Shown here in pieces: positions 12,585 to 15,887 of a DNA stretch of 64,000 nucleotides. This DNA is from Anoxybacter fermentans. Its GTDB lineage: Bacteria > Bacillota > Halanaerobiia > DY22613. A program made the translations under genes and the position numbers. Each line of letters opens with the position of its first letter. The stretch's first letter is position 1. The stretch is from NCBI RefSeq assembly GCF_003991135.1, contig NZ_CP016379.1:62001-126000 (forward strand), given 5' to 3'. The notes under the pieces were generated by a model that searched no databases, was not told the DNA's origin, and was given only the letters and a program-made list of their open reading frames with translations.

Positions 12585-14768
12585 ATGATGGTAGATTTAA
12601 TCGTGGAGGGATTACCGGATTTTGTTAGTCCTGGAGATATAGTAGGAGCAATTGCCAATGAAGTGAAGATTGATGGGTCGAAAATAGGTAAAATTCGAAT
12701 TAATAAAAAAAGGGGAAGGGCTCTGGTTCAGATTGATGAAGAAGTTGTTAAAAATGTTTTAGAGGTAATGAATGGGCGACAAATTTATGGTGCGGAAATC
12801 AAAGTTAGAGTGAAAAATTACCATGAATTACAATTGGCACATATAAAAAAATACACTTCTAAATTCAAAAATCTTCTTTACCTGGAACGTCAAGAAGAAT
12901 TAGTAAAATATCGCCAGGAAATGAGGCATTTAACCGGTGAAGAACGTCAGCAACTGGGACATGCTCTGCTTAATTTATGGGGACGTGCTGCTGCTTTCCC
13001 AAGTGGTGATTTTTATCAGGTAAGATTTATTCTTCAGGATGAGCAAGAACTGTTACCACCCCATAAATTTACTGTAGGGGATCTGGTGATAGTCAGTAAG
13101 GGTGAACCATTAGAAGCAGGAAATCCTCAGGGGAAAGTAGTTCAGATAGAACCGAATGCCATTACTGTTCAATTTAAAGGAGAACCGCCATATTTTGTTT
13201 ACAGTCGGGGTTTAAGATTAGATCTTTATGCACATGATCAGGTCTTTCACCAGACTCTCAAAACATTAAGATATTTGAATTCTTTTAATAAAGTTAATAG
13301 CCGGCTGAAAGAAATTTTATTAGGTGAAGAAGAACCTGAGTGGAATGATGAGACAGTTGAGGTAAATTCTTCTTATTTGGATGAGGAACAAAAAGAAGCT
13401 CTTTATAAAGCATTGATTGCAAAAGATCTTTTAATTATTCAAGGAGGAGCAGGAACTGGTAAAACTACTGTTGCAGTTGAAATCCTGCTCCATCATCTTA
13501 GAAGAGGATATAAGGTTTTAGCTGTAGGTTCTTCTGTAAGTTCCAGGGATTGTCTTGCAGCTAAACTGATGGAGAAAGGTCTAAAAGTTCTTAAGTTAGA
13601 TGATGTAGATTTAAAAAATGAACCTGAATATGATTCTATTTTTGAGCTTTTCAAATCTGTACAGGAATTGGTCAAACAGCGGGATAAATTGACCCATCCA
13701 GGAGGACATTGGGTTGAAGGATTAAGTTATGATGAAATTATCGAAAAAGCTAATAATGAAGGCTATTATTTGGGAATTCCCAGTTATCGTTTAAAAGAGA
13801 TGGCAGAGTGGATTCAATTACAAAGAGAAATTGATGCAAAATTAAATGATATACGTCATTATCAAAATAAAATCTGGACACGGATGATAGAAGATCATGA
13901 CCTTATCTGTGTTACCCACCATGAAGTAGCTCAATTAAAGCAGCGGTATGATGTGGTGGTAATTGATGATGCTCATATGATCAATGAACCGGAAACCTTA
14001 TCTGCATATTTTAAAGGGAATAAAGTTATTCTTTTGGGTGATATAGCGCAGATTTCTCCACAGGTTATCAATGAAGAGGCTAAATTGGGGGGATTAGATC
14101 AATCTCTTTTTGCCAGATTCTATAAAGAACTGGATAATGAGTGGATATGTACATTAAAGACCCAGCATCGTTTTAATTTTTCTCTCTGGAATTCTCTTCG
14201 TAATCTCTGTCCGGTTGGAGAAAAACTGGGAAATAATGAAGAGGTAATGCCGTTAAAGTTAAATCCCTGGCGGATGGGGCCAACTTCTAAAGTATTGGAA
14301 GACTCTGCAACTCTGGTCTTTCTGGATACTTCCCAGATTAGTATTAAAGAGGAAGAAATGGATGATGAGTATATTAATTATCTGGAGGCAGATTTAATTC
14401 GTGAAATTCTCCAGACTGGTGTTGATCTTGATTCTATGATAGAAAGAATTGGAGTTTTGACTTTTTACTCGGCTCAGGTTCAGCAGATAAAAAAGAGTTT
14501 GAAGGCAAATGGAGTTGAGTTTAAAACAATTTGTACTATTGATGAGTTTTGCGGGAAAGAAAAGGATCTAATGATTATCTCACTGGTGCATAGCAATTAT
14601 AACGGTGACATGGGTAAGGCAGAATCTATTCCTCATTTGATTACAGCAATAACAAGGGCCAGAAAGAAATGTATTCTTATTGGTAATTTTAAAACTTTGA
14701 GTACTCATCCGTTTTATCAAAAAATGCTTAAAGAGATTGAACGTTGGGGTAGAGTATATAAACTATAA
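12585..14768 (+). CDS. SF1 (Upf1/IGHMBP2-like) helicase with DbpA-type RNA-binding N-terminus
   Basis: 727 residues. Residues about 3-78 (VSPGDIVGAIANEVKIDGSK, IGKIRI, VLEVMNGRQIYG) resemble the RRM-like RNA-binding domain at the C-terminus of DbpA-type DEAD-box helicases. A helical and beta-barrel-like region follows, then the SF1 motor: Walker A GGAGTGKTT from residue 287, motif II VVVIDDAHMI near 460, motif III LLGDIAQISP, motif IV TQHRFN, motif V TIDEFCGKEKD near 656 and motif VI AITRARK. Motif II has Asp where Glu is usual, and motif V has Cys in place of the usual Gln (FQGxE). Both changes could alter ATP turnover. Probably an RNA or RNA-DNA helicase in the cytoplasm; role unknown. Single gene, own start behind AAGGGG. 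Confidence 0.8.
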   Translation: MMVDLIVEGLPDFVSPGDIVGAIANEVKIDGSKIGKIRINKKRGRALVQIDEEVVKNVLEVMNGRQIYGAEIKVRVKNYHELQLAHIKKYTSKFKNLLYLERQEELVKYRQEMRHLTGEERQQLGHALLNLWGRAAAFPSGDFYQVRFILQDEQELLPPHKFTVGDLVIVSKGEPLEAGNPQGKVVQIEPNAITVQFKGEPPYFVYSRGLRLDLYAHDQVFHQTLKTLRYLNSFNKVNSRLKEILLGEEEPEWNDETVEVNSSYLDEEQKEALYKALIAKDLLIIQGGAGTGKTTVAVEILLHHLRRGYKVLAVGSSVSSRDCLAAKLMEKGLKVLKLDDVDLKNEPEYDSIFELFKSVQELVKQRDKLTHPGGHWVEGLSYDEIIEKANNEGYYLGIPSYRLKEMAEWIQLQREIDAKLNDIRHYQNKIWTRMIEDHDLICVTHHEVAQLKQRYDVVVIDDAHMINEPETLSAYFKGNKVILLGDIAQISPQVINEEAKLGGLDQSLFARFYKELDNEWICTLKTQHRFNFSLWNSLRNLCPVGEKLGNNEEVMPLKLNPWRMGPTSKVLEDSATLVFLDTSQISIKEEEMDDEYINYLEADLIREILQTGVDLDSMIERIGVLTFYSAQVQQIKKSLKANGVEFKTICTIDEFCGKEKDLMIISLVHSNYNGDMGKAESIPHLITAITRARKKCILIGNFKTLSTHPFYQKMLKEIERWGRVYKL

Positions 14769-14890
14769 AATAACCATTAATTACTATTTGATTTTTCTCT
14801 GGTATAGGCAGGAAATACTCAAGGTATAGAGAATTTTATAATATGATTTGATTAATTTTTTCGGGAACAAGATATAATGAGGTGAAATCT

Positions 14891-15040
14891 ATGTTTATAA
14901 AAAAAAGGAGAAAAAGATATAGAAATAAATATACGCCCCAGTATAAGGAGAAGTTGAAACGCGAATTACAGATTGGATATATTGAGATGGGTGAACTTAA
15001 TTTAAAATTAGCTGAAGAGGGAATGAAGTTGGAAGAATGA
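14891..15040 (+). CDS. Small basic protein resembling the tail of the adjacent EndoAI antitoxin
   Basis: 49 residues, ATG start 6 bp behind GAGGTG, ending in a terminator. Its first 24 residues are very basic (MFIKKRRKRYRNKY). Residues 25-45 (LQIGYIEMGELNLKLAEEG) align with the C-terminal part of the antitoxin encoded 200 bp downstream ([19 protein letters not shown]). In MazE/EndoAI proteins that C-terminal region is what clamps the toxin. The ribbon-helix-helix DNA-binding part is missing. It may be a free toxin-binding peptide, a regulator of the pair, or the remnant of an older antitoxin. TATAAT at 14873-14878 lies almost on the ribosome site, so the promoter may be further upstream (TATAAT at 14837-14842). 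Confidence 0.6.
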   Translation: MFIKKRRKRYRNKYTPQYKEKLKRELQIGYIEMGELNLKLAEEGMKLEE

Positions 15041-15064
15041 GGCGAGAAATCGTCTCTTTTTTTA
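15037..15064 (+). terminator. Rho-independent terminator of the small antitoxin-like gene
   Basis: GAGGCGA pairs with TCGTCTC (one G-U pair) around a GAAA tetraloop, followed by seven T. It overlaps the stop codon and makes 14891-15040 a self-contained unit. Confidence 0.8.
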
Positions 15065-15176
15065 ACTTTTGACACTAACTTAAATATGAATGCATATAAT
15101 ATTAGTTGATGAAGAAACTATTTAGTAAGAATAAATTAGTCTGGTTGATTATGGAATATATGCTCTCAGGATAATA

Positions 15177-15206
15177 TTGACATTCATATGACCTGAAGTA
15201 TATAAT
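15177..15206 (+). promoter_or_regulatory. Probable sigma-A promoter of the toxin-antitoxin operon
   Basis: TTGACA (15177-15182), 18-bp spacer, TATAAT (15201-15206), 54 bp before the antitoxin start. A second TTGACA at 15069 with TATAAT at 15095 has a 20-bp spacer and is a poorer candidate. Confidence 0.65.
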
Positions 15207-15259: not shown

Positions 15260-15535
15260 TTGGGTAACTTAAAACGTGTTATGATTAGCTTGCCGAGCAG
15301 CCTTCTTAAAGAAGTGGATGGAATTGTAAAAAAAGAACATGGAAATCGGAGTCAATTTATACGGGAAGCTATGCAAATGTATATAGCAGAACGTCAAAAA
15401 AAGGAACTTCGTGAAAAAATGAAACAGGGATATATAGAGATGGGTCAGATTAATCTGGAATTGGCCAACGCTGGTTTTTCTGTTGATTGTGGAATGATGC
15501 TAGCATATGAGGAAAATCTTGCGGAGTGTGAGTAA
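15260..15535 (+). CDS. ndoAI: Ribbon-helix-helix antitoxin, EndoAI/MazE-like
   Basis: 91 residues. N-terminal ribbon-helix-helix DNA-binding domain ([21 protein letters not shown], then [17 protein letters not shown]), followed by a C-terminal toxin-binding tail ([19 protein letters not shown]). The frame opens at TTG 15239, but GGGGGTGG is placed for TTG 15260, giving [11 protein letters not shown]. It ends one base before the toxin start, the normal antitoxin-first order with coupled translation. It should neutralise the endoribonuclease and repress its own promoter. A 49-residue tail-like paralogue lies just upstream. Confidence 0.88.
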
Positions 15536-15536
15536 T

Positions 15537-15887
15537 GTGTCTATAAAACGTGGTGATGTATATTATGCTGATTTGAATCCGGTTGTAGGGTCTGAGCAGG
15601 GTGGTGTACGGCCAGTTCTGGTTATTCAAAATGATATTGGTAATAAATATAGCCCAACTGTAATAGTTGCTGCTATTACTTCTAAAATTGATAAAGCTAA
15701 ATTACCAACACATGTTGAGATAAAAGCTGAGCAAAGTAATCTTGAGAAGGATTCTGTAATTTTATTAGAACAGATCCGGACTATCGATAAGCGTAGATTA
15801 CAGCGGCAGGTGACTCATCTAGATCCGGAGATTATTGAGCGGGTAAATGAAGCTTTAGAAATTAGTCTCGGGCTAATTGAACTTTAA
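15537..15887 (+). CDS. ndoA: mRNA interferase toxin, EndoA/MazF (PemK) family
   Basis: 116 residues, exactly the Firmicutes EndoA size. Cleaves single-stranded mRNA, typically at UACAU in the Bacillus type. Visible: [19 protein letters not shown] with the catalytic Arg region [12 protein letters not shown], then VAAITSK with the conserved Thr, and the typical end [10 protein letters not shown]. The frame opens earlier (15507) inside the antitoxin gene, but GTG 15537 lies 10 bp after GGAG and gives the normal N-terminus [12 protein letters not shown]. Followed by a terminator. Cleavage specificity is inferred from family likeness only. Confidence 0.92.

Follow-up and report, generated by a model that had tools for sequence, protein, structure and literature searches.

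A conserved tail-only antitoxin homologue upstream of EndoAI-EndoA in the Halanaerobiales, a probable second antitoxin

A small gene located directly upstream of the EndoAI-EndoA toxin-antitoxin (TA) operon of Anoxybacter fermentans probably encodes a second antitoxin of EndoA that is made only of the toxin-binding helix, a reading to which sequence comparisons lend a probability of about two in three. The gene lies in the window, the whole stretch of 64,000 nucleotides that was analyzed, and it is conserved, codes for a protein, and is under purifying selection. MazF systems serve as the textbook example of a single antitoxin with two tasks, silencing of the toxin and repression of the operon. 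If the proposed reading is true, a conserved second antitoxin that only neutralizes would separate these two roles in a natural system. It would also bear on the tuning of conditional cooperativity and point to a possible origin of the DNA-blind staphylococcal MazE.

The small gene and its product

The small gene occupies positions 14891..15040 of the + strand, and it was recognized as encoding a tail-only antitoxin homologue of 49 amino acids from its sequence, its homologues, and a pN/pS far below one. Its open reading frame runs uninterrupted from ATG to TGA over 49 codons, with the Shine-Dalgarno sequence GAGGTGA (14879..14885, + strand) five bases before the ATG; GAGGTG(A) is also present 5' of most of the listed homologues. 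The gene ends in an intrinsic terminator (15039..15064, + strand) that overlaps its stop codon and is composed of the hairpin GAGGCGA-GAAA-TCGTCTC and a T run, and the 61 nt around the stop (15020-15080) fold at -21.1 kcal/mol (z = -4.7). The original prediction had assigned the gene a ribosome site and a terminator of its own, and both are present.

The same prediction described the peptide as a copy of the toxin-binding tail of the neighboring antitoxin, which agrees with the comparisons made here. The GYIEMG.(I/L)NL.LA helix, with which EndoAI contacts the toxin, is common to both proteins, and the small peptide carries it without the DNA-binding domain. A domain search of the peptide returned no Pfam match and no RHH match. 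A single-chain AF2 prediction gave only helical structure, with one long helix at residues 16-48 and a mean pLDDT of 84.7. A single BLASTP comparison of the peptide against EndoAI gave an E value of 4e-8 with 18/48 identities, and a search of this 3.56-Mb genome with the peptide found the small gene and EndoAI but nothing else. That the similarity goes beyond chance follows from conservation in relatives, and not from the pairwise score alone. The shared motif of the small gene can be written as I/L-x3-M/L-x2-GY-x2-M-x3-N-x2-LA. The N-terminus of the window peptide is quite unlike that of the other family members, and the peptide ends before the C-terminal YEexLAECE that is conserved in EndoAI of the class.

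Neighboring genes

Downstream of the small gene lie the two genes of the EndoAI-EndoA operon, both on the + strand. EndoAI (15260..15535) is an RHH antitoxin of 91 amino acids (PF01402, E 1.4e-6) with a TTG start and a toxin-contact tail, and its best match among solved structures is B. subtilis EndoAI in 4me7 (4me7_E, E 3.7e-13). EndoA (15537..15887) is a MazF-family endoribonuclease toxin of 116 amino acids with a GTG start (PF02452, E 8.8e-39; B. subtilis EndoA structures, E 2.6e-51), and it is the sole PemK/MazF match in the 3.56-Mb genome. The best starts, TTG at 15260 and GTG at 15537, represent minor corrections. The gap between the small-gene stop and the EndoAI start measures 219 nt, close to the 200 bp originally given, and the identification of the neighbors as an RHH antitoxin and EndoA/MazF was confirmed.

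A putative sigma-A-type promoter of the operon (15177..15206, + strand) matches the consensus at 12/12 positions as TTGACA-18-TATAAT, and an identical perfect promoter occurs in the family member G001 and in many others. It is flanked by a pair of inverted repeats of 19 nt each (79%), at 15084-15102 and 15171-15189, whose half sites read ATATG..CATAT. These repeats are a candidate operator, which is known from the window only and lies in an AT-rich region. The RHH half of EndoAI has strongly diverged in members of the families f7, f2, and f9 (loci L022, L024, L025, L028, L034, and L043) while the toxin tail is retained, and DNA binding by EndoAI may be altered or lost in these lineages.

The upstream neighbor of the small gene is an SF1 helicase of the IGHMBP2 type (12585..14768, + strand) that carries a DbpA RNA-binding domain at its N-terminus (PF03880, E 6.6e-13). 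No terminator was found in a search between the helicase and the small gene. An IGHMBP2-type helicase is kept just upstream of the TA locus in most of the Halanaerobiales loci.

Distribution in relatives

A search of 60 relatives, together with a gene-by-gene reading of the loci, provided 49 loci of the class with assessable upstream sequence. A homologue of 47-58 codons was found directly before EndoAI-EndoA in 41 of the 49, representing eight families of a salt-loving group that corresponds to the order Halanaerobiales in NCBI terms. The 41 loci include that of G043, which has no EndoAI, and that of G041, where the contig ends before EndoAI. Conservation before EndoAI in relatives, which had been set in advance as a test of the original prediction, was hence observed. 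The description of the peptide as an orphan was wrong, as the small gene represents a class-wide gene family. It is absent in the families f4 and f7 and in the genus g23, and it is therefore dispensable.

Across 398 genomes of the phylum, no second copy was found at the locus outside the class. Only the EndoAI tail was matched in those genomes, while class genomes with the small gene give two matches. The sole genome outside the class with a second match was G132, in which the match lies on a different contig in a frame of 192 amino acids. Additionally, the phages and plasmids searched gave no match to the small gene. The gene was found only in the class and is therefore either an invention of the class or a peculiarity retained there. 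No description of it was found in the literature, where a query for Halanaerobi* and MazF gave no paper, and matches to family models all stayed below the respective cut-off.

Selection and conserved residues

Nei-Gojobori counts pooled over 12 sister pairs gave a pS of 0.56, a pN of 0.16, and a pN/pS of 0.28 (Fisher p about 5e-50), in agreement with the original expectation of a dN/dS below one. In the pair formed by the window and G001, synonymous sites were saturated (pS 0.99, pN 0.28). With few exceptions, the homologues start with ATG or GTG behind a strong Shine-Dalgarno sequence.

These observations bear on whether the gene is the non-functional remnant of an EndoAI duplicate whose DNA-binding domain was lost, an alternative that the original prediction had left open. 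Its length and partial tail, its absence in f4 and f7, and its weakening in g21 are consistent with decay. However, the gene is intact with a ribosome binding site, and usually with a promoter and a terminator, across eight families, and its pooled pN/pS is that of a constrained protein. A decayed antitoxin is ruled out by conservation and purifying selection, and hardly any probability is assigned to it.

Relative to the invariant Gly-Tyr, the positions kept by the family are I/L-7, M/L-3, G0, Y1, M4, L/I7, N8, L11, A12, and often G15, which form the same face as in EndoAI tails. Specifically, G, Y, M+4, N+8, L+11, and A+12 are invariant or near-invariant and coincide with EndoAI tail residues, and these toxin-contact positions are the best conserved of all across the eight families. 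At position +9, the small protein and the EndoAI of the same genome agree in residue class (hydrophobic or polar) in 37 of 38 loci, with only 3-4 changes on the tree and two independent pairs on supported branches for a sign test; the agreement is suggestive of a shared binding site. Residue agreement between the small protein and EndoAI within families was no better than shuffled (p 0.95).

In the genus g21 of family f9 (L031, L045, and L051), the N-terminal helix LSxEERxxIAxEMIEGYKK is kept, and M+4, N+8, and LAEEG are lost. The pN of the small protein in this genus is 0.07-0.14 in the N-terminal half versus 0.15-0.40 in the C-terminal half. Similarly, the LAEEG part is lost in the Halanaerobium-type genomes (f2). 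Toxin binding is therefore not the whole story in these groups, and the conserved N-terminal half in g21 suggests a second role. The same losses, with the drift of the C-terminal half in g21, would favor a different or added target, where the N-terminal helix half, (L/F)(S/T)xxE(K/R)xxIAxxMxxGYxK, binds another partner such as EndoAI or a protease adaptor, with toxin binding as a secondary function. This explanation is considered improbable, since G0, Y1, M4, N8, L11, and A12 remain the positions under the strongest constraint, and the member in the window has a quite different N-terminus. The combination of a relaxed toxin-contact half and a conserved N-terminal half in g21 and the Halanaerobium-type genomes is fully explained by none of the readings.

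Transcription signals

Promoters and terminators were called as consensus matches, not as transcripts. In 37 of 41 loci, the small gene is preceded by a sigma-A-type promoter-like match of at least 10/12, in most cases at a distance of 70-90 nt from the start, and a terminator was called after the gene in at least 27 of 38. An additional promoter-like match, often a perfect TTGACA-18-TATAAT, precedes EndoAI in 23 of 38 loci. In most loci, the small gene is bracketed by a promoter and a terminator, and EndoAI often has a promoter of its own. The layout usually predicted from these signals is that of two transcription units, with the small gene as a monocistron and the TA operon next to it.

This design varies among taxa. 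No promoter reaching 10/12 was found before the small gene in the family of the window, so the gene may be read there from the upstream helicase or via another sigma factor. In part of f9, the small gene and EndoAI are separated by 11-36 nt and no terminator was detected, which indicates that the small gene probably heads a three-gene operon in these genomes.

The overlap of terminator and stop codon in the window, and the hairpins after the reading frame in many relatives, would also fit a leader peptide or attenuator, where the reading frame and terminator govern read-through into EndoAI-EndoA by translation. Such a role is highly improbable, given that EndoAI has its own predicted promoter downstream of the terminator in the window, where the match is perfect, and in many relatives. 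In addition, selection acts on the amino acids that match the antitoxin tail, and no terminator was detected in the f9 members with short gaps.

A natural locus apparently lacking EndoAI

In G043, a fragmented metagenome assembly of 240 contigs, the gene order is helicase, small gene, toxin, and asparaginase; EndoAI appears to be deleted and the toxin reads intact. At this locus (L047, G043:C19, family f10), oriented with the toxin, the small gene spans 1974-2138 and the toxin frame begins at 2265. A possible EndoAI stub that ends in LECE* overlaps the ribosome site of the toxin. A search of the G043 genome revealed no other EndoAI, the best other match having an E value of 0.002 in a frame of 261 amino acids. 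No antitoxin-like gene was found besides the small gene, which lies immediately in front of the toxin and has a promoter match of TTGACA-17-TATACT upstream. The T run that follows the hairpin of the gene is displaced by about 13 nt, which makes read-through to the toxin plausible. If MazF is as harmful in G043 as elsewhere, the small protein should hold the toxin in check.

Proposed mode of action

As a second antitoxin, the free helix would occupy the groove of the EndoA dimer that receives the EndoAI tail (Met64-Glu83 of YdcD in B. subtilis) and block the entry of RNA. Since it has no RHH domain, the small protein would not bind the operator, and we infer that the toxin would be silenced without added repression of the EndoAI-EndoA operon. 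In excess, the small protein could draw toxin off the EndoAI-operator complex, and, with an independent promoter, it would buffer the toxin regardless of EndoAI autoregulation. The window peptide, mapped residue by residue onto YdcD and SaMazE, presumably spans the equivalent of YdcD Met64 to about residue 80.

Data from other bacteria are consistent with this mode of binding. Met64-Glu83 is the segment of YdcD reported to contact EndoA in B. subtilis, and residues 23-56 of the short SaMazE bind SaMazF by NMR (PMC4041440). Moreover, the synthetic peptide SamF counteracts E. coli MazF in vivo, such that a free peptide suffices (PMC12557383).

The chief alternative is a competitor or derepressor, a role suggested by the absence from the peptide of the C-terminal YEexLAECE, which EndoAI of the class conserves. 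The short helix would take the EndoAI site on EndoA without closing the RNA groove, and it would either displace EndoAI and free active toxin, or mainly strip the toxin from the repressor complex and derepress the operon. The independent promoter predicted in most relatives would also suit such a factor. However, an activator makes little sense in G043, where the toxin is kept with the small gene only, and the peptide appears to span nearly the whole contact segment of YdcD. SaMazE, a protein of similar length, neutralizes SaMazF (PMC4041440). A competitor is thus regarded as unlikely, although it is the most probable of the rivals.

If the small protein is a second antitoxin, the locus could represent a class-wide mazEF variant with divided labor, in which EndoAI has both functions and a DNA-blind helix with a promoter of its own is confined to neutralization, leaving repression to EndoAI, so that silencing is uncoupled from autoregulation. 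The takeover by the tail-only protein in G043 would then be a living intermediate toward the S. aureus type. This broader proposal is tentative and is held at somewhat less than even odds.

Comparison with known systems

In its putative antitoxin role, the small protein would come closest to the short S. aureus MazE (NF041459; PMC4041440). Both comprise about 50-56 amino acids, lack a DNA-binding domain, and carry a helix of the GYxxMAxLNLxLA type, and the short MazE is not autoregulated in S. aureus (PMC4041440). Fourteen of 15 small-gene homologues match the NF041459 model (best E 4e-10), whereas scores of 20.0 bits for the window peptide and 28.6 bits for one homologue miss its cut-off of 108 bits. 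In S. aureus, the short MazE is alone and adjoins sigB. In contrast, a full RHH EndoAI accompanies the small gene here; across the loci, the small gene is mostly predicted to form a transcription unit of its own, and its product is shorter at the C-terminus. The S. aureus layout, with a sole antitoxin directly upstream of mazF, was found only in G043, as EndoAI intervenes in the window. Because the scores lie far under the cut-off and the gene is not alone, it was not filed as a short MazE of the S. aureus type.

The toxin-contact helix is also common to the small protein and EndoAI/YdcD (NdoAI), the RHH antitoxin of B. subtilis EndoA (PDB 4me7). Unlike YdcD, the small protein has no RHH domain with which to dimerize or bind DNA, and it is not an EndoAI.

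A precedent for two antitoxins of one toxin is given by SpoIISB and SpoIISC of the Bacillus SpoIISABC system, where two homologous small antitoxins have separate proposed promoters and the second arose by duplication (PMC4926146, PMC4526809). The window locus likewise has two homologous antitoxin-like genes beside one toxin, and separate promoters are predicted by consensus in many relatives. However, SpoIISA is an unrelated membrane toxin whereas the window toxin is MazF/PemK, and the SpoIIS antitoxins are alike in build while only one of the two considered here has a DNA-binding domain. SamF resembles the small protein as a free peptide without a DNA-binding domain that blocks MazF in cells (PMC12557383), but it was selected in the laboratory against E. 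coli MazF, whereas the small gene is natural. The locus is rated as a mazEF locus with an added, apparently separately expressed, tail-only protein in the putative role of an antitoxin.
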